Part shown: piece by piece, positions 3,191 to 19,124 of the stretch
Numbering within the stretch: position 1 is the stretch's first letter
Layout: each line of letters begins with the position of its first letter
DNA from: a virus
Length of the DNA stretch: 22,769 bases
Reading direction: 5' to 3' (one strand)
IMG/VR virus record: IMGVR_UViG_3300034117_002157
Location: 1 to 22,769 of that record
Notes under the pieces: model-generated
The model's input: only the letters and a program-made list of their open reading frames with translations
Told to the model about the DNA's origin: nothing
Databases searched by the model: none
Position numbers and translations under genes: made by a program

Positions 3191-4855
3191 ATGATCGATA
3201 TCAAACAGGCGAAATCAGCGCAAAGCCGGATGGAGAGCAACCGGTCGAATGTCGATGCCCGTCGTTCTGAAATCGCGCCGCTCCTGCTCGATGAAGAAGG
3301 CCATTTCCCGACAATGAGCCGGATGGAAGGCCAATATTCCAACAATCGCCGTTTCGATAGCTATCCGGCTTTGGCGTTGCTGGATGGCGTTGCGGGTTTT
3401 GAGGATTTTGTCATGCCCAAGGGGCAGCGTTGGCAAAAATTTAGAGTTCCGGATGAAGCGGTTAATAATCGTCGTGCGAACCGCGTGTGGCTGGAAGCGA
3501 TGGAAGGGCGGTTATTTGCGCTGCGCAACGATCCCGAAAGCGGCTTTGTCTGGAACATGCACCAATCTGCGTGCAGCCTTTTTGCCTTTGCGATGCAATC
3601 GATGTGGCCTGACCTTCGCCGTGACCAGCGCGGGCGGGCTGTTGGCCTGACCTATGAGGCAGAGCATATTGACGGGATTTATCTGGAGCTCGACGGCGCG
3701 GGACGCCCATATCGGATTCATCGCAAGATCATTTTGTCGGCGCAGCAGGCGATGGACAAGTGGAAAGACAAGTCCCCCAAGGAAGTTGTCGACGCCATGA
3801 CGGGCCTAAACAAGAATCCTGACCGCGATTTTACTTTTGTTCATTGCATCGAAAAAAACAGCCGATTGCTGACAGGCAGGCTTGATGCAGCAGGTATGCC
3901 ATGGCTGGGCGGATATTATCTTGAAGGCGGGGATGATAATATGTTTGCGACGGGTGGATATGAAACCCTACCGCGCATTGTCAGTTCGTTTGATCGCGGG
4001 CTTAACCAGCATTATGGCAAATGCCCGGCAATGTTCGTGTTGCCGGAAATTCGCGCGTGCCAGGTCATGAAACAAGACCGCGTTTTGGCGGTCGAGCAAA
4101 AAACCAAGCCGCGAATCATTGCAATGGACGATGCGCTTGATCGCGGTATCATGAACCTTGGCCCTTATGGTGTCACCTATGGCGGGCTGGACGAGCGCGG
4201 CAACCCCACGATGCAGCCATGGCTTGAAGGCGCAGACTTAACCGAAGCCGCCGCGCTGCACCAAGAAGAACGCGAGATGATTGATCGCGCATTTTACCGC
4301 GACCTTTTCCAGATCAACAAGGAGTATAAGACCCATATCACCGCAACGCGGACGATGGAGGAAATTGCCGAAAAGGGCATATTCCTCGGCCCGTTGGCGC
4401 GGCAGGAAGATGAATGGCTGTCGCGCATGTTGCCGCGCGAATTATGGTTGATGGAGCAATTGGGGTTGATGGACGACATGCCGCCAGAGCTGCGCGAGTA
4501 TTTTGCGCAGGAAGGTGGCATTGACGTCATGTACGACAATAATCTGAGCCGGATGCAGGAAGCGTCCGGCGCGGTTGGATTGTTGCGCACCGCCGAAATG
4601 GTAACGTCGCTTGGTTCCATTGATGCCGAATATGTCGAGGCATACAAGCGCGCCTATGACCCGAACATAATTGTCGGTTGGCTGGGCCGCAACAACGGCA
4701 TTCCAGCGATGTTAGAACGCAGCGACGACGACAAAGAAGCGTTCGACAATGACAAGGCGATGGCCGCGCAAATGCAGGAAGCATTGGCAGCCGCACCGGT
4801 GATCGCCGACGCGGCGAAGAATTTTGCGCAAGCGGAGTCAATCAGTGTCGCATGA
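3191..4855 (+). CDS. Portal protein (T7-type head-to-tail connector)
   Basis: At 554 residues this is close to T7 gp8 (536). The sequence follows the Head-tail_con family layout. An N-terminal helical region is followed by a segment running from SYPALALLDGVAGFEDFVMP, which covers the usual 'l.a.l...l.pp...wf.l' region, and then by VWNMHQSACSLFAFAM. Near the end are the long clip and crown helices (ATRTMEEIAEKG; LPRELWLMEQLGLM). Twelve copies form the ring at the unique vertex through which DNA enters and leaves, and to which the gp11-like adaptor binds. The start at ATG 3191 is supported by AGGAG at 3179-3183. The 3' end overlaps the next gene by 11 nt. Family assignment is strong from sequence pattern, length and neighbours. 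Confidence 0.93.
   Translation: MIDIKQAKSAQSRMESNRSNVDARRSEIAPLLLDEEGHFPTMSRMEGQYSNNRRFDSYPALALLDGVAGFEDFVMPKGQRWQKFRVPDEAVNNRRANRVWLEAMEGRLFALRNDPESGFVWNMHQSACSLFAFAMQSMWPDLRRDQRGRAVGLTYEAEHIDGIYLELDGAGRPYRIHRKIILSAQQAMDKWKDKSPKEVVDAMTGLNKNPDRDFTFVHCIEKNSRLLTGRLDAAGMPWLGGYYLEGGDDNMFATGGYETLPRIVSSFDRGLNQHYGKCPAMFVLPEIRACQVMKQDRVLAVEQKTKPRIIAMDDALDRGIMNLGPYGVTYGGLDERGNPTMQPWLEGADLTEAAALHQEEREMIDRAFYRDLFQINKEYKTHITATRTMEEIAEKGIFLGPLARQEDEWLSRMLPRELWLMEQLGLMDDMPPELREYFAQEGGIDVMYDNNLSRMQEASGAVGLLRTAEMVTSLGSIDAEYVEAYKRAYDPNIIVGWLGRNNGIPAMLERSDDDKEAFDNDKAMAAQMQEALAAAPVIADAAKNFAQAESISVA

Positions 4856-5179: not shown

Positions 5180-5183
<4 letters not shown>
4845..5183 (+). CDS. Bbp19-like small phage protein (112 aa)
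   Basis: The best start is GTG 4845, 7 nt after GGAG (4834-4837). An upstream TTG at 4824 lies inside the portal gene and lacks a ribosome binding site. The core reads YAAYQSIFGLVDGKLSDDGQ followed by VLTDLITAANLGEM, and later YGRRKILLHIINRL. This matches the pattern of the Bbp19 family of Bordetella phage BPP-1, where a 'F.t.eG..vL.dL' block is followed by 'eGrR.vvlhI...L'. Members are short helical proteins coded next to the portal or scaffold; their function is not established. It overlaps the portal gene by 11 nt and the scaffold gene by 4 nt (ATGA), so all three are probably co-translated. The family call is from recognised motif spacing rather than a search. Confidence 0.7.
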
Positions 5184-6022
<839 letters not shown>

Positions 6023-6254: not shown

Positions 6255-7166
6255 ATGCCCGAGAATTATGCCGATACACATCGCAATGTAACTTTTAACA
6301 ACAACGTCACCGCCACGCTCCGTCAGGAACCTGGCATTCTGTATCCGCTTTGCGGCAGTTCCGCCAGCTACAGCGGCAGCAAGGCCGCACGGATCGAAAA
6401 CCGTTTTGGTCGTTTGAAAATGCAGACCAAGGCCGAGCGCAACGGCGATACCAACAATGTCGATTTGAATAGCGTTGCGCGTCACATCAAGGTCGGACCA
6501 AGCGCCGATGTCGCGCCGTTAATTGATCGCGACGACCAAGGCACAACCGAAGTCGAATTGACAAGCCCAGCAGTTACCGAAACCGCCGACGCAGCACGAA
6601 CCTATCACGATGATATGTTCGGCATTGGTTATTTCGGAGATGCTTGGGAAGGTGAAACCGGCAGCACGGCGATTCCGTTCAAGGCCGCCAATATCCTCCC
6701 CCACGGCGGCACGGGTGTTACGAAGGCAAAGCTGATCGAAATGCGTGAATTGGTGCGCAAGCGGAACAACAAGACGATGCGCGAAAAGCCCGTCATGTTC
6801 CTGTTCCCGGAGGATGAAAGCCAGTTGCTGAGTATCAGCGAATATGCCGATATCGACACCAATAATTTCAAGCCGCTGGTCGAAGGCGAAATCATGCCGT
6901 GGCTTGGCTTCCGCTTTGTCTGCATCAATCCGGATGCGGAATCGTTGCCAACGTCGTTCAGCAACTATTTTGCCGATAGCGGTGCAACCCGCCGTCTCCC
7001 GGTCTTCATGCCAAGCGGTATGCACCGGGGCATCTGGACCGAGTTTTGGGGCAAAATTTCGGAACGCAACGACAAGAAGCACAGCGAGCAGATTTACGGC
7101 GAAGCTCGCAGCGCCTGCGTCCGCACCGACGAGGACAAATGCTTTCTGTTCCTCAGCCAAGGATAA
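6255..7166 (+). CDS. Major capsid protein (HK97-fold family of BPP-1-type podophages)
   Basis: This 303-residue protein forms the icosahedral shell. The block VTKAKLIEMRELVRKRNN followed by MFLFPEDESQLLSISEYADID, then LVEGEIMPWLGFRFV, is the characteristic central and spine-helix region of the phage capsid family that includes the Bbp17-type coat of phage BPP-1. The C-terminal part (FWGKISERNDKKHSEQIYGEARSA, given here in pieces: FWGKISERNDKK, then HSEQIYGEA) also fits. It is shorter than T7 gp10A (345) and shows no N-terminal delta domain. The ATG at 6255 has AGGAG at 6242-6246. The gene stands apart from the scaffold behind a long leader and is followed by strong stem-loops, consistent with very high expression. 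Position after the scaffold and before a cement gene agrees. Confidence 0.9.
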   Translation: MPENYADTHRNVTFNNNVTATLRQEPGILYPLCGSSASYSGSKAARIENRFGRLKMQTKAERNGDTNNVDLNSVARHIKVGPSADVAPLIDRDDQGTTEVELTSPAVTETADAARTYHDDMFGIGYFGDAWEGETGSTAIPFKAANILPHGGTGVTKAKLIEMRELVRKRNNKTMREKPVMFLFPEDESQLLSISEYADIDTNNFKPLVEGEIMPWLGFRFVCINPDAESLPTSFSNYFADSGATRRLPVFMPSGMHRGIWTEFWGKISERNDKKHSEQIYGEARSACVRTDEDKCFLFLSQG

Positions 7167-7171
7167 GGTGA

Positions 7172-7197
7172 ACCGGGCGGCAGAGCTGCCGCCCGGT
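7172..7197 (+). promoter_or_regulatory. Strong 12-bp stem-loop just after the capsid stop codon
   Basis: ACCGGGCGGCAG, two bases, then its exact complement CTGCCGCCCGGT. In RNA the top would open to about 10 bp with a 6-nt loop. No T-run follows, so it is not a classical intrinsic terminator. A pause, processing or mRNA 3'-end stability role is more likely. Confidence 0.6.
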
Positions 7198-7200
7198 CAA

Positions 7201-7227
7201 CTGACGTAGAGCGGCATCGTCAGCCGC
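7201..7227 (+). promoter_or_regulatory. Two overlapping, mutually exclusive small hairpins before the cement gene
   Basis: CTGACG (7201-7206) pairs with CGTCAG (7218-7223). Alternatively GCGGC (7211-7215) pairs with GCCGC (7223-7227). Both cannot form at once. They lie just upstream of the AAGGA (7236-7240) used by the cement gene. Confidence 0.35.
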
Positions 7228-7248
7228 AGAAGCAAAAGGACAAATCCA

Positions 7249-7665
7249 ATGACCACTCGTTACGGTACTCAATTCAGCGCCACCGACTCGCTTAAAAAAG
7301 CGAACGGTACATCGCACAATAGCCCAATCAAGGCATTCAAAAACCGTTTTGCACTCGGCGCCGAAGGCGGAACAGTCGGCCCATATTTGATCGCAAAAAT
7401 TGGCATTGGCCATGTGATCGACGAATTCCGGTTGGACACCGATGCCAACCTGTCGGGGATTAACTTCACGATCGGCACCATTGCTGCACCGGCCAAGTAT
7501 CGCGCCGCGACCGCAGGGCCAAACGCTGCCGTTGTCGTATTGCAGCCGTTGTTGGCGAACAACATCGAAGCGTCTGAAGTCGCGGAAGATATCTATCTGT
7601 TCCCCAGCGCCAACATGCCCAGTGCCGGAACATTGAAAACGACGGTTTTTACCGTCGCACGTTAA
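7249..7665 (+). CDS. Putative capsid cement/decoration protein
   Basis: The 138-residue product sits directly after the major capsid gene, where cement or decoration proteins are found in BPP-1-type and related podophages (Bbp16 in BPP-1). It is rich in beta-strand pattern: GPYLIAKIGIGHVIDEFRLD, then NFTIGTIAAPAKY, VVVLQPLL and TLKTTVFTVAR, with Gly/Ala turns and no membrane segment or enzyme motif. Such proteins bind the outside of the mature shell and stabilise it against internal DNA pressure. The ATG at 7249 has AAGGA 8 nt upstream. The gene is isolated on both sides by 80-130-nt gaps full of inverted repeats, suggesting separate control of its mRNA amount. The call is mainly positional; a minor head or tail-completion protein is the alternative. 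Confidence 0.6.
   Translation: MTTRYGTQFSATDSLKKANGTSHNSPIKAFKNRFALGAEGGTVGPYLIAKIGIGHVIDEFRLDTDANLSGINFTIGTIAAPAKYRAATAGPNAAVVVLQPLLANNIEASEVAEDIYLFPSANMPSAGTLKTTVFTVAR
7640..7657 (+). promoter_or_regulatory. 7-bp hairpin over the last codons of the cement gene
   Basis: CGACGGT, loop TTTT, then ACCGTCG: a perfect stem ending six bases before the TAA stop at 7663. It is the first of a row of stems running to 7766. Confidence 0.45.
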
Positions 7666-7672
7666 AAAGTTT

Positions 7673-7698
7673 ACCGGCCAGCTTTTGAGTTGGCCGGT
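7673..7698 (+). promoter_or_regulatory. 10-bp stem-loop after the cement gene
   Basis: ACCGGCCAGC, loop TTTTGA, then GTTGGCCGGT; ten pairs with one G-U. It begins 7 nt after the stop codon. There is no T-run on the + strand. On the - strand the complement is followed by a TTTTT stretch, but no - strand gene is present to terminate. Confidence 0.55.
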
Positions 7699-7701
7699 GA
7701 A

Positions 7702-7766
7702 GCGGCGCGCCGGATGATCCGGTTTGGATCAACGCTCGGCGTAGGGGTGAAAGTCCGGCGCGTCGC
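7702..7766 (+). promoter_or_regulatory. Predicted three-way-junction RNA element before the gp11-like gene
   Basis: Bases 7702-7714 (GCGGCGCGCCGGA) pair with 7754-7766 (TCCGGCGCGTCGC) over 13 bp with one G-U. Inside are two further hairpins placed back to back: TGATCC/GGATCA (7715-7720 with 7726-7731) and ACGC/GCGT (7732-7735 with 7739-7742). The single-stranded joiner is AGGGGTGAAAG (7743-7753). A local alternative, CCGGA/TCCGG at 7710-7722, competes with the long stem. It ends 29 nt before the next start codon and its GGAG. It does not match any riboswitch or self-cleaving ribozyme core I know; in particular the hammerhead CUGANGA is absent. Function unknown; control of head-to-tail expression ratio or RNA processing is inference. 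Confidence 0.45.
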
Positions 7767-7795
7767 AATCTGTTTCCCTTTGGAGCAAAGCCACG

Positions 7796-8419
7796 ATGAC
7801 CGCAGCGCCCGTCCCATCGCAAACACGCATCGTCAACGCGGCCTATGCCGAATTGGGATCGACGACGACTATCAACAACATCGATGACAGCGCGGCGCAC
7901 CGCGCCAAAAGGCTTTGGGACGATATTGTTGCCGAAATGCTTGCAGAGCATCCTTGGAATTTCCAGATACGGCGCAAGCCATTAAACGCGACTGCCGACG
8001 TCGATTTGACCAACAGCGAATGGGATTATGCGTGCGCCTTGCCGCCCGACTGCGCACGCTGGCTGCCGCCGTCTCGCGAAGATAAGAATTTCTTTCGCGG
8101 CGAAGCTGAAGGCCGCTATTTGCTGGTCGATAGCACGCCGCCAATCCATCTGCGCTACATCACAAGCGATGTCGATATCGCAACATGGTCGCCGCATTTT
8201 GTGCGCGCGATGATCCTGCGCCTAGCTGAATCGCTTTGCGATGGCGTGACGCAGAGCGAAGGCAAAAAAGACCGGCTGCGCGAACGTGCCCAAGCCGCAT
8301 TGAAAAATGCCAAGCGCATCGATGGACTGCAAACAGGCCTGACCCATCGCAGCGCCGTGACGGTGCAATCGTCGTGGCTGCAAGCGCGGATGCACCCAAA
8401 CACCTATATCGGGCGTTAG
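7796..8419 (+). CDS. Tail tubular protein A-like adaptor (T7 gp11 family)
   Basis: This 207-residue protein (T7 gp11 is 196) forms the dodecameric ring that joins the portal to the nozzle. Family hallmarks visible are VNAAYAELGS at residues 13-22, a helix reading AAHRAKRLWDDIVAEMLAEH, the signature HPWNFQIRRKPL at about 51-62, and a proline-cysteine segment ACALPPDCARWLPP corresponding to the 'yalP.DclR' motif. The C-terminal helices (FVRAMILRLAESLCDGVTQS) complete the bundle. It is the first tail gene and is separated from the cement gene by a structured 130-nt gap. The GGAG at 7782-7785 is 10 nt before the ATG. Motifs and position agree, and the next gene is its usual partner. Confidence 0.9.
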   Translation: MTAAPVPSQTRIVNAAYAELGSTTTINNIDDSAAHRAKRLWDDIVAEMLAEHPWNFQIRRKPLNATADVDLTNSEWDYACALPPDCARWLPPSREDKNFFRGEAEGRYLLVDSTPPIHLRYITSDVDIATWSPHFVRAMILRLAESLCDGVTQSEGKKDRLRERAQAALKNAKRIDGLQTGLTHRSAVTVQSSWLQARMHPNTYIGR

Positions 8420-8422
8420 CCC

Positions 8423-10696
8423 ATGTCGCGCGTTTCGCACTGGCAAGTCAGTTTCAATGGCGGTGAATTGTCGCAGCGGTTGCGCGCACGCATCGATCAA
8501 GCGGTTTACGATATCGGCCTTGATGCCATGGTCGGCTTTGCGCCGACACTTGAGGGCGCGGCAGAGGCAATGCCCGGCACAATCCGAATTGCCGCAGCCA
8601 AGGGGCCGTGCATATTGCAGCGGTTCGAATATAATGTAACCCAAGGCCATGTGCTGGAATTCAGCAATCTGGCAATCCGCATTTTTACCAATGACGCGCA
8701 AGTCATGGACGGGACTGTGCCGTTTGAAGTCGAGACGCCCTATAGCTATGCGCACGTGCAGCAACTGGCGTTTGAGCAAAGCTATGACGTGCTTTATTGT
8801 TATCACCCGTTGCACCAGACGCGTCAATTTGTGCGTCTTGCCGCCGATGACTTTGCGATTGAAACGCTCGAACTGGAAAATGGCCCGTTCGAACCGCGTA
8901 ACAAGGACAAGACTTTGTTGGTTACCGCTAGCGGAGTCACGGGCAGCGTTACGCTGACGTCATCAAGCGCCCTATTCGTGGCAACCGATGTTGGTAGCTT
9001 GTTTCAGATGGAGGCCGATGATTTCGGCGATATCACCGCTTGGGAGCCATATATAAGCGTCACCAACGGGCAGATGTTGACATGGAACGAGCGCGTTTAC
9101 CGCGTCGTCGGCGGCAGCGGGCGAACAGGAACGCTGGCGCCGGTGCATACTGAAGGCGTCGAATGGGACGGCATAGGTGTCGGCACTGATATCAACGACA
9201 AGCCAGCGGGCGGTTGCCAGCTGGAATATGTGCATGGTCGCTTTGGTGTTTTGCGCATCACGGGGTTTACCAGCGGCACGGTTGTTACGGCGGACGTTCT
9301 GCGCACATTGCCCTTTACGGTGTCTGAAGCCTATGATTATGAGGACGGTTATTGGGATCCGGACTTTGGCGTTTGGGTGCCACCAGCAACCGGCGTCACC
9401 TATAGCTATGGTAGTTGGCGCTGGCGGTTTGGAAGCTTTTCAAACACGCGTGGTTGGCCGCAATGCGGGGTGATCTGGAACGAGCGGCATGTGTTGTTCA
9501 AGGGCAGCACGGGATATGCCAGCGTCGCGGGCGATCTCAACGATTTTTCGACCTATAATGAGCTGGGCGACATAACCAGCGACATGGCCTTTATCTTTAC
9601 GATTAAAGACCCGAACGCAGTCTTGCGCGCGGTCGCAGATGACAAGTTGTTGATGTTTACGGCCAGCGGTGTGTGGGCATTGAACCCGTCCAATGCGGCC
9701 GCAGGAATCGGCCCTGGCAATTACCGCGTGGACCGGCAAAGCAATGGCGGCGCTTCGGCGGCGATGGCGGCGGAAATTGACAGCCGGATCGTCTATATTG
9801 ACCGCAGCAAGCGCCGGATATTCGAAGCGGATTTCGAAGCGCAGCGCAATGTTGAAAGCGTGCTCGACCTCACGCGCTATGCGCGGCAAATTGGCAGCAG
9901 CCGTTTCGTGCAACTGGCGACGCAAAACCAGCCCATGAACATGATCTTTGCCGTGCGCGGCGATGGCAGCATGGCAGCAGCGGCATATTTACCCGAAGAA
10001 CAAGTGCTAGGATGGTGTCAACGCTCAATGGCGACAGGCGTGGCCGCGCGCAGCATTGCCAGCATGACGGACCCGAACGGCGAGTATGAGCAGATTTGGG
10101 TGGCGGCACAATATGGCGGAAGCTGGCATATCCTCTTGATGGAGGAATGGCGACAGGACAATGAGAGCCGCCCGAATGCCGTTATGGTCGATATGGCGAA
10201 ACGCTGGGACGGCGCGGCGGCAGCTACGTTCACGATTTCGCATCTACCCAATGCCAATATTCATGTCGTTGCCGATGGGCGGGTTTATACGACGCTATCA
10301 ACCAATGGCGCTGGCGCGTTTACGTTGCCGCAATCGGCATCGGTTGTTGTCGCAGGTTTGCCGTTTGAAGCCTATGTCCGCCAACTGCCAACAGAAAAGG
10401 GCGGGGATAACGGCCCGGCGATTGGCAAGATGGCGCGGGTTTCGCGCGGTTCGGTCAAGGTGCTGAATACGCGCGGGCTGGCAATTAGTGCATCGGGCGG
10501 GCCACCGCCGCGCACGCTGGAATCGCTGCGCACCGATAGCGTTACCGATAGTGCGTTCGATCCAGTCAGCGGTTTCGCCATCGAAGAAGATTTGGGCGAT
10601 TATGTTCGCCAGCCTTGGTTGAAAATCGAGCGCATTGCACCAACCGAAGCGACTATTCTTGGCATTGGCCAGATATGCGATGTGGAGGAAAGATGA
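8423..10696 (+). CDS. Tail tubular protein B-like nozzle (T7 gp12 family)
   Basis: The 757-residue product matches T7 gp12 in size (794). It is the nozzle hexamer below the adaptor ring, through which DNA leaves and to which fibres or spikes attach. The N-terminus carries the family pattern SFNGGELSQRLRARID, 'Y..gl..m.gf.ptleGaae', then a PGTIRIA segment; most relatives have RPGT where this one reads MPGT. It continues with RFEYNVTQGHVLEFSNLAIRIF. The rest is beta-rich with many Gly, as expected for stacked beta-propeller and tube domains, for example MTFTASGVWALNPSN-like blades near residues 410-425. The start is ATG 8423, 3 nt after the previous stop without a clear ribosome binding site, implying coupling. 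Confidence 0.9.
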   Translation: MSRVSHWQVSFNGGELSQRLRARIDQAVYDIGLDAMVGFAPTLEGAAEAMPGTIRIAAAKGPCILQRFEYNVTQGHVLEFSNLAIRIFTNDAQVMDGTVPFEVETPYSYAHVQQLAFEQSYDVLYCYHPLHQTRQFVRLAADDFAIETLELENGPFEPRNKDKTLLVTASGVTGSVTLTSSSALFVATDVGSLFQMEADDFGDITAWEPYISVTNGQMLTWNERVYRVVGGSGRTGTLAPVHTEGVEWDGIGVGTDINDKPAGGCQLEYVHGRFGVLRITGFTSGTVVTADVLRTLPFTVSEAYDYEDGYWDPDFGVWVPPATGVTYSYGSWRWRFGSFSNTRGWPQCGVIWNERHVLFKGSTGYASVAGDLNDFSTYNELGDITSDMAFIFTIKDPNAVLRAVADDKLLMFTASGVWALNPSNAAAGIGPGNYRVDRQSNGGASAAMAAEIDSRIVYIDRSKRRIFEADFEAQRNVESVLDLTRYARQIGSSRFVQLATQNQPMNMIFAVRGDGSMAAAAYLPEEQVLGWCQRSMATGVAARSIASMTDPNGEYEQIWVAAQYGGSWHILLMEEWRQDNESRPNAVMVDMAKRWDGAAAATFTISHLPNANIHVVADGRVYTTLSTNGAGAFTLPQSASVVVAGLPFEAYVRQLPTEKGGDNGPAIGKMARVSRGSVKVLNTRGLAISASGGPPPRTLESLRTDSVTDSAFDPVSGFAIEEDLGDYVRQPWLKIERIAPTEATILGIGQICDVEER

Positions 10697-16683: not shown

Positions 16684-19124
16684 TGGCATTGGGCACCTGC
16701 ATCCCTGACCTGATCGCGCAAGGCAAAATCCCCGCCGATCGCGCCGAGCAAATCCGTGCGCGTTATGACGAAATGGTGCGCGGCTATGAGCCTCGGCTTG
16801 GCCGTGCGGCCGCAGAGGCAGAGGCGACGCGGATTATCGTTTCCAATCTGGAGTCGGATGTGATTGCGAAGCAAAATGCGCAGCTTAAGCAAAGAAAAGT
16901 GCAAGGTGAATGGCTTGGCCGGATGACGGCAGATGCAGGAGACGGGCCGTTTAAGCTGGCGACGGCAATCGATTATCTGGCGCGGATCGACAAGAAAATT
17001 GACGCGGTGCGCGGTTCCGCCTTTGCCTCGCTTGATGAATTCCTCGCCAAGCATCGCCGCAATTTGCTGGGGCAGATACGCGACAAAAGCGACCTTGGCG
17101 ATGTGTTGCGCGAACGGTTCGGGCAATCGACAGGTAACGTCAACGCGCGCGAATTTTCGCAGGCGATGGGTGATGTCATGGAAATGTTGCGCCAGCGGTT
17201 CAATCAGGCGGGCGGGCGAATCGGCAAGTTGGAACAATTTGTGTTCCCGCAACGCCACGACCAAGCGCTTGTGCGCGCGGTGTCGTTTGAAGAATGGGCC
17301 GATTTTGGACCGATATCGCGGGCGCGCCTGATTGACCTTGAAACCGGAGAGCCAGCCAGCGGCATGAAGCGACTCGATATCTTGCGCCGCATGTATGAAA
17401 ATATCCGTGCCGATGGGGCAGGCAAGGCAAAGCCGGGGCAAATGTTTGCCGGGTCGCTGGCATCGCGCCGCAGTGACCCGCGACTAATCCATTTTGACAA
17501 TCCCGACGACTGGCTGGAATATCAGGGCCGCTTTGGCGGGGCGGATAATATCTATGATATCTTTGTCGGCCATGTCGAAAGCATGGTGCGCGACATAGCG
17601 TTGATGGAAGAAATGGGGCCAAACCCGACCGCGACATTGCGTTTCATGAATGATTGGATGGAGAAGTCGATCAAGTTGAAAGGCGACCAGGACGCGATCA
17701 ACAATCTTGGCAGTGTGCAGGGCAAGATGGGCCGCATGTATGACGTGATATCCGGCAACAATCACATGGTTGAAAACCGGCGCTTGGCGCTGGCATTCAG
17801 CGCGTTTCGTGCGCAGCAAGTCGCGGCGAAGCTGGGCAGTGCGGTATTGTCGGCAGTCACGGACCTAAGCACCATGATGAAGACAGCAAAGTTTAACGGC
17901 ATACCCGCCATGAAAATGGCCGGTCGATATGTAGAGCTATGGAAGCCCGGCGATGCTGACCGTGCGCTTGCCGTGCGTTCTGGCCTGATTACGCAAGAAT
18001 GGTTGACGCTTACGTCGGCATCCTATCGGTATAATGGCGAGGAATTGACCGGCGAAATTGCGCGCCGCATGTCCGATTTTGTCATTCGTGCACAGGGCTT
18101 GGCCCGTCATACGCGCAACGGCCAGTGGGCGTTCGGCATGGAGACGATTAGCTGGCTGACGCATAACAAAGCGAAGGGCTGGGACGATATCGACCCAGCC
18201 ACGCGCGCGATGATGGAGCGTCACCAATTAGGCCGGCAGGATTGGGACAATTACCGCAACAGCGCCACGGTCGAGGAACGCGGAGCCGAATGGCTGTTAC
18301 CGACGGAGATTGCCGACAAGCGCCTTGGTGAACGCTTCCTGCAAATGATCCTGAGTGAAACGGATTATGCCGTTATCATGCCAGATGCACGCACGCGCGC
18401 TATGATAGCAGGGATGCCAAAGGCGGGAACATGGCTTGGCGAAATTATGCGGTCGAGCATTTTGTTCAAAGCCTTTCCGCTTGCTGTGCTGTCACTGCAT
18501 GGTCGCCGGATGCTGGAACAGGGCGGGATCCACAACAAGGCAAAATATGGCCTGACCTTGCTGGGCATGATGACGGTTGGCGGCGCGATATCGGTGCAGC
18601 TGAAACAGGTGGCGGCGGGTAAAGACCCGCAGCCGATGGTGGATGAAGATGGCACGCCAAGCGCGCGCTTTGCCGGTCGCGCGTTGATGCAATCGGGTGG
18701 TCTTGGGCTGTTCGGCGACCTGATCTATAATTCGGAAAACAGCTATGGTGGCGGTGTCACCAAGACATTGGCTGGGCCAGTGCTGGGGCAGACATTGCCC
18801 GACGCGCTGGCCATACCCGCCAATAGCGCGGTTGCGGCATTTGATGGCGATCCTGAAACCGACACGACACTGGCCAAGGATTCGGCGAAGCTGTTGCTCA
18901 ACGAAATCCCCGGTCGGAACCTTTGGTACACACGGCTTGCTTATGAGCGCGGCTTTGCCGACATGATCCGTGAATGGAGCGATGAAGATATTGCGGGCGC
19001 TTATGCACGGCAGGAACAGCGCGCAGAGAAAGAGGGCACGGCTTATTATGCGCCGCCCGGTGCGGGGCTGTCCGGAATGCGGGCACCTGACTTGGAAAAC
19101 GCGTTTGCGGAGTCCGCGCAGTAG
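16683..19124 (+). CDS. Large internal virion protein, possible second part of a gp16-type ejection protein
   Basis: ATG 16683 shares one base with the previous stop (TAATG) and has AAGGA at about 16669; a TTG at 16674 is less likely. The 813-residue protein is mostly helical. It has amphipathic stretches such as AFSAFRAQQVAAKLGSAVLS and WLGEIMRSSILFKAFPLAVL (about 580-600), and a hydrophobic segment YGLTLLGMMTVGGAISV (about 620-637) that could enter a membrane. Near the end, LWYTRLAYERGFADMIREW and a 'G.ayy.pPG....mRAPDL' tail are found in very large phage virion and polyvalent proteins, where they sit at the C-terminus. Since the previous protein ends just where such a module would begin, the two together may equal T7 gp16. 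No enzyme motif is seen. A separate virion protein is the alternative. Confidence 0.65.
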   Translation: MALGTCIPDLIAQGKIPADRAEQIRARYDEMVRGYEPRLGRAAAEAEATRIIVSNLESDVIAKQNAQLKQRKVQGEWLGRMTADAGDGPFKLATAIDYLARIDKKIDAVRGSAFASLDEFLAKHRRNLLGQIRDKSDLGDVLRERFGQSTGNVNAREFSQAMGDVMEMLRQRFNQAGGRIGKLEQFVFPQRHDQALVRAVSFEEWADFGPISRARLIDLETGEPASGMKRLDILRRMYENIRADGAGKAKPGQMFAGSLASRRSDPRLIHFDNPDDWLEYQGRFGGADNIYDIFVGHVESMVRDIALMEEMGPNPTATLRFMNDWMEKSIKLKGDQDAINNLGSVQGKMGRMYDVISGNNHMVENRRLALAFSAFRAQQVAAKLGSAVLSAVTDLSTMMKTAKFNGIPAMKMAGRYVELWKPGDADRALAVRSGLITQEWLTLTSASYRYNGEELTGEIARRMSDFVIRAQGLARHTRNGQWAFGMETISWLTHNKAKGWDDIDPATRAMMERHQLGRQDWDNYRNSATVEERGAEWLLPTEIADKRLGERFLQMILSETDYAVIMPDARTRAMIAGMPKAGTWLGEIMRSSILFKAFPLAVLSLHGRRMLEQGGIHNKAKYGLTLLGMMTVGGAISVQLKQVAAGKDPQPMVDEDGTPSARFAGRALMQSGGLGLFGDLIYNSENSYGGGVTKTLAGPVLGQTLPDALAIPANSAVAAFDGDPETDTTLAKDSAKLLLNEIPGRNLWYTRLAYERGFADMIREWSDEDIAGAYARQEQRAEKEGTAYYAPPGAGLSGMRAPDLENAFAESAQ

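Follow-up and report, generated by a model that had tools for sequence, protein, structure and literature searches.

A conserved RNA structure at the head/tail gene boundary of podophages, a candidate intercistronic element

The window, i.e. the whole stretch of viral DNA analysed here, comprises the 22,769 bases of IMG/VR record IMGVR_UViG_3300034117_002157. All of its genes lie on the + strand, and their layout is that of an epsilon15/BPP-1-like podophage late operon. A terminase-like ORF (324-2141) is followed by the portal gene (3191-4855, PHROG match), a scaffold-like gene (5180-6022) and the gene of the major head protein (6255-7166, PHROG match). The scaffold-like protein carries a glutamine run, QQQDQQQQQQQQQQQ, near its N-terminus. 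Next come a cement/decoration-like gene of 138 aa (7249-7665), a tail tubular A-like gene (7796-8419; PHROG 394 tail protein, E 2e-33) and tail tubular B (8423-10696, with PHROG support for the tail genes); the RNA element described below lies downstream of the first and upstream of the second of these three. The cement-like ORF had no match in PHROG and its name thus rests on position and size, the position being that of gp09 in BcepC6B, which follows the major head protein gene. Tail B of the window shows 24-33% identity to its counterparts in epsilon15, BcepC6B and similar phages. As it shares 79% identity with a Sphingorhabdus MAG contig, the hosts of the phage are probably Sphingomonadales; two relatives sit as prophage copies within genomes of the Sphingomonadales group.

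At the boundary between the cement-like and tail tubular A-like genes, an earlier note on this DNA had described a 7-bp hairpin, a 10-bp hairpin and a closed 13-bp stem, flawed only by two G-U pairs. All three stems are present on the + strand. The 7-bp hairpin (7640-7657) lies within the last codons of the cement ORF; it is mostly missing in relatives and is probably not part of the conserved element. The second hairpin, originally placed at 7673-7698, extends to 14 bp (7670-7701). This GC-rich hairpin, HPb, stands directly 3' of the cement stop codon (z -6.6) and lacks a U-run, and a hairpin at its position is kept across the family. It is followed by the closed stem P1, whose 5' strand (7702-7714) pairs over 13 bp with the 3' strand (7754-7766), both strands showing compensatory changes in relatives. 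P1 encloses the hairpin P2 (UGAUCC-GGUUU-GGAUCA, 7715-7731) and a 3' joiner, ACGCUCGGCGUAGGGGUGAAAG (7732-7753), which ends in AGGGGTGAAAG (7743-7753); the joiner aligns with AUUCGGAGUGGGA of the core group of relatives but has diverged from it, with more than one inner pairing possible. G7705-U7763 and G7681-U7690 account for the two G-U pairs.

The fold is far more ordered than chance would give, as had been supposed. The 127 nt reach -73.2 kcal/mol, where shuffled sequence averages -45.7 (sd 3.7), giving z -7.4, and none of 200 shuffles attains the native energy. Among 454 segments tiled over the record, 7640-7766 ranks lowest in both z (-7.6) and energy. A 166-nt piece scores z -5.8 on the + strand versus -3.9 on the complementary strand. 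Other strong folds are predicted inside coding sequence, at 4451-4577 (z -5.8), 18101-18227 (-5.2) and 18701-18827 (-4.6).

The interior of the closed stem had been read as two further hairpins forming a three-way junction with a purine-rich joiner. The first of these hairpins (7715-7731) was recovered. The other (ACGC-TCG-GCGT) is only one option and is not found in the relatives, and the minimum free energy fold pairs CGCUC with GGGUG in its place, which makes the three-way junction insecure. A third inner stem, P3 (CGG/CCG), is compatible with several core members, while the window and L128 need another pairing. Competing inner folds also exist in which GGRA of the joiner pairs with UCC of P2, so that a strict junction is not established; switching between two such modelled folds is possible. 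The conserved form is instead a hairpin next to a long closed stem in which P2 is followed by a GG-rich 3' joiner.

Direct DNA searches returned near-identical copies only. The element DNA had no similarity to INPHARED phages or PLSDB plasmids, and neither had the surrounding 2.7 kb to INPHARED phages. Relatives were gathered by profile searches (tail B and capsid alignments), a DNA pattern of the joiner and genome searches; in tail B or capsid protein they share 37-53% identity with the window. Between the stop of the cement gene and the start of tail A, these relatives carry a GC-rich hairpin, sometimes spanning the stop codon, and within a few nt a closed stem of 9-14 bp that encloses a short inner hairpin and a GG-rich single-stranded 3' joiner. 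The spacing between HPb and P1 is 0-4 nt in most members. This position and architecture are shared by more than 15 divergent loci (L017, L018, L020, L021, L085, L086, L111, L112, L115, L116, L118-L120, L123, L125, L126, L128, L161, L163, L166 and L173), and the location at the head/tail gene boundary, pointed out for the window in the earlier note, holds for every relative examined. In two of these loci, an in-frame stop interrupts tail tubular B at a shared position (L018 4501-6810, L020 4483-6816), with the ATG of a second tail B ORF directly after the stop. In several genome prophages tail B was likewise matched as two pieces (residues about 1-301 and 328-755), which suggests a conserved split, recoding or an insertion.

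More distant relatives (about 35% identity or less) lack the closed stem in the form of the window clade. A hairpin of at least 10 bp nevertheless follows the cement gene in 31 of 39 such loci, compared to 55 of 195 random stretches. Some of these loci have CATTTTTG or CCTTTTTA 3' of this hairpin; in L024, L037, L039 and L010 it is followed by a short T-run and may thus be an intrinsic terminator there. A small gene of ~80-100 aa often sits between cement and tail tubular A in the distant relatives (L010, L022, L023, L025, L052 and others). Of 15 members, 14 also have a GC hairpin 3' of the capsid gene; that of the window separates the major head protein gene from the cement gene (7172-7197, 11 bp, GC, no U-run). 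The genes of the most abundant proteins are thus bracketed by hairpins.

Homology was assessed with a covariance model (R1) built from five relatives, with the window left out, in a search space of 816 kb. R1 detects the window copy at 7703-7766 (36 bits, E 3e-4) as well as those of L128, L020 and L086 (E <0.001) and L115 (E 0.011), and in each of these five the best match falls at the same gene boundary. The window match is built on P1 and P2, the joiner being passed over as a local insert. Some members also score on the reverse strand, but lower, because P1 is nearly palindromic. Weaker matches elsewhere (E >0.02) are compatible with chance. Only the two prophage copies were found in 397 family and 396 order genomes (overlapping samples), and within the sequences searched no copy lies away from the head/tail boundary.

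Aligning all members with MAFFT gave nothing usable for P2, and pairs were therefore counted on a model-guided alignment and by hand. On the model-guided alignment of nine members, which is biased towards the structure, 87% of the cells are paired versus 75% when shuffled. Two-sided changes occur in 11 of 19 pairs, compared to 4.7 in shuffles, so that the covarying pairs called for by the earlier note do exist in homologous phages. None of 500 shuffles attains any of the five pairing measures, and slid registers collapse them. P1 has 98% of its cells paired and two-sided change in 7 of its 11 pairs, a covariation matched by none of 500 shuffles and by no slid register. For P2, where the alignment register is imperfect, 62% are paired; by hand, nearly every member forms it. 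Wobble pairs differ by strand, with 19 G.U against 2 A.C (binomial p 2e-4, p values being indicative in this phylogenetically structured member set), and it follows that the sense-strand RNA is the conserved, selected molecule. The compensatory changes beyond controls and the strand-specific wobble show a structured RNA kept by selection.

The view that the element fits no known structured RNA class was supported. Rfam 15 (4227 models) gave no match at gathering thresholds in the window and 12 related loci, and under permissive settings the window, L017 and L119 yielded sub-threshold noise only. A likeness of GAAAGUCCGG in the window to RNase P CR-I was dropped, as it is not common to the relatives. 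In the SU10/phiEco32 paper, examined for capsid-proximal RNA, a frameshift stem-loop is all that is described. The proposal of an undescribed phage RNA element is supported by the folding and covariation tests, the fixed boundary position and the absence from Rfam, and the element would represent an RNA family missing from that collection. No intrinsic (Rho-independent) terminator with GC stem and T-run was found on either strand of 7100-8100, and the promoter scan gave no promoter-like site near the element. As no U-run follows the window hairpins, intrinsic termination is not predicted.

The best reading of the sequence evidence is an undescribed cis-acting intercistronic RNA, whose mechanism we infer. 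From a single long operon, tailed phages need hundreds of capsid and cement subunits but only about a dozen for the tail, these copy numbers being those of related virions. To our knowledge, the mechanism of head:tail dosage in temperate podophages without an RNA polymerase of their own is mostly unknown. Control of expression ratio, processing or pausing by the element is plausible, and the element, which precedes the low-copy tail genes, probably helps to set the amounts of head versus tail proteins. The hairpins after capsid and cement, the requirement for the sense strand and the missing U-run favour an intercistronic barrier that parts head from tail mRNA in the late (virion) transcript, and we give this role an even chance. 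In this mechanism, the element would act in cis, its hairpin stacking directly on the long closed stem that holds the inner hairpin and the 3' joiner, and the paired structures would end or shield the upstream capsid/cement mRNA, be it by blocking 3'-5' decay, by partial termination or by endonucleolytic processing. The tail genes would be cut off from translational coupling, and head proteins (hundreds of copies) would come to exceed tail proteins (about a dozen). In this scheme, the element would change mRNA levels and would be read by a putative host factor. A conserved RNA locked to the head/tail boundary is a directly testable element.

The joiner may hint at more. The motif CGGAGUGGGA is common to seven core members, one of them having CAGAGUGGGA, and CGGAGUGG(G)A is near-invariant in the seven core lineages although their tail tubular A proteins are only 35-55% identical. 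Such constancy exceeds the needs of a simple barrier and suggests a specific reader of the core-group joiner. The joiners of non-core members (GGGACUGGAA, GGGUUGGAA, GGGGUGGAU or GGAUGGGGA) look related, with weak significance (combined p about 0.01), and that of the window, CUCGGCGUAGGGGUGAAAG, has drifted from the core consensus (p 0.15 against the core motif, not significant). A universal joiner motif was rejected, being strong in the core group only. It is a tentative possibility that the element is a new class of RNA in which P1 and P2 display the GG-rich joiner to RNA polymerase, a nuclease or a virion protein. If there is a specific reader, head-to-tail gene dosage would be set by a dedicated RNA switch and not by a passive hairpin.

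Several other explanations were weighed against the intercistronic barrier. The element could be the site of a phage or host RNA-binding protein that controls tail-gene translation or assembly-coupled expression, with P1 and P2 presenting the joiner for recognition. The near-invariant core joiner would be explained well; its likeness is weak beyond the core group, however, and the end of P1, ~30 nt upstream of the tail gene start, leaves the ribosome-binding site free. CsrA, the obvious GGA-binding protein, was not found in three sphingomonad-group genomes and six phage records (E. coli control positive) and is an unlikely reader. Overall, a protein site seems unlikely.

Somewhat less likely again, judged by analogy, is a nascent RNA acting on RNA polymerase by pausing or antitermination, like HK022 put, with two neighbouring stem-loops of which one would hold an unpaired purine-rich strand. 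The put RNAs are about 70 nt long and consist of two stem-loops, the first with a triplex and a bulge (PMC9378689), and HPb and P1 are likewise adjacent in most members. However, put elements adjoin early promoters, and here the element lies deep in the late operon with no promoter-like site. A trans-acting small RNA processed from the late transcript would fit a compact, very stable, intergenic, single-copy element. We consider it improbable, given that neither terminator nor promoter was matched, that the element always lies in sense orientation at this one gene boundary and was found nowhere else, and that most conservation falls in P1, a paired region. An inverted repeat acting at the DNA level, as a protein-binding palindrome or as a packaging or recombination signal, with incidental RNA pairing, could account for the GGCGCGCC palindromes conserved in the P1 strands of many members, but it is very improbable, since a DNA palindrome predicts no strand bias such as the 19:2 wobble on the coding strand and the terminase gene is far away.

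The intercistronic barrier can be compared to several known systems. With the phi29 pRNA, the phage packaging RNA of Rfam, the element shares being a phage RNA drawn as helices around a junction; it differs in lacking an Rfam match, in position and in phage type. The likeness to HK022 put, an antiterminator by which RNA polymerase resists pausing and termination in cis, is one of topology only (a cis RNA of ~70-100 nt with two adjacent stem-loops and an unpaired stretch), whereas put stands at early promoters in another gene context. In T7, T-phi separates the capsid gene (gene 10) from that of tail tubular A (gene 11) and is a U-run terminator for T7 RNA polymerase. The element is likewise placed after the capsid genes and before tail tubular A. 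However, it has no U-run, and a search of nine related records, run without a positive control, gave no T7-type polymerase. An alphaproteobacterial precedent is offered by a hairpin between cistrons of the Rhodobacter capsulatus puf operon (Klug et al. 1987, as cited in PMC6238624). Like it and the phage CUUCGG hairpins, which determine the stability of individual mRNA segments, the element is a sense GC hairpin between operon genes of unequal dosage without a U-run, and the alphaproteobacterial setting is shared with puf. In contrast to both, the element, known here from sequence, adds a second, larger closed stem that encloses P2 and a joiner of conserved sequence. Intercistronic regulatory RNA is thus a known kind, of which the present form is new within the collections searched.
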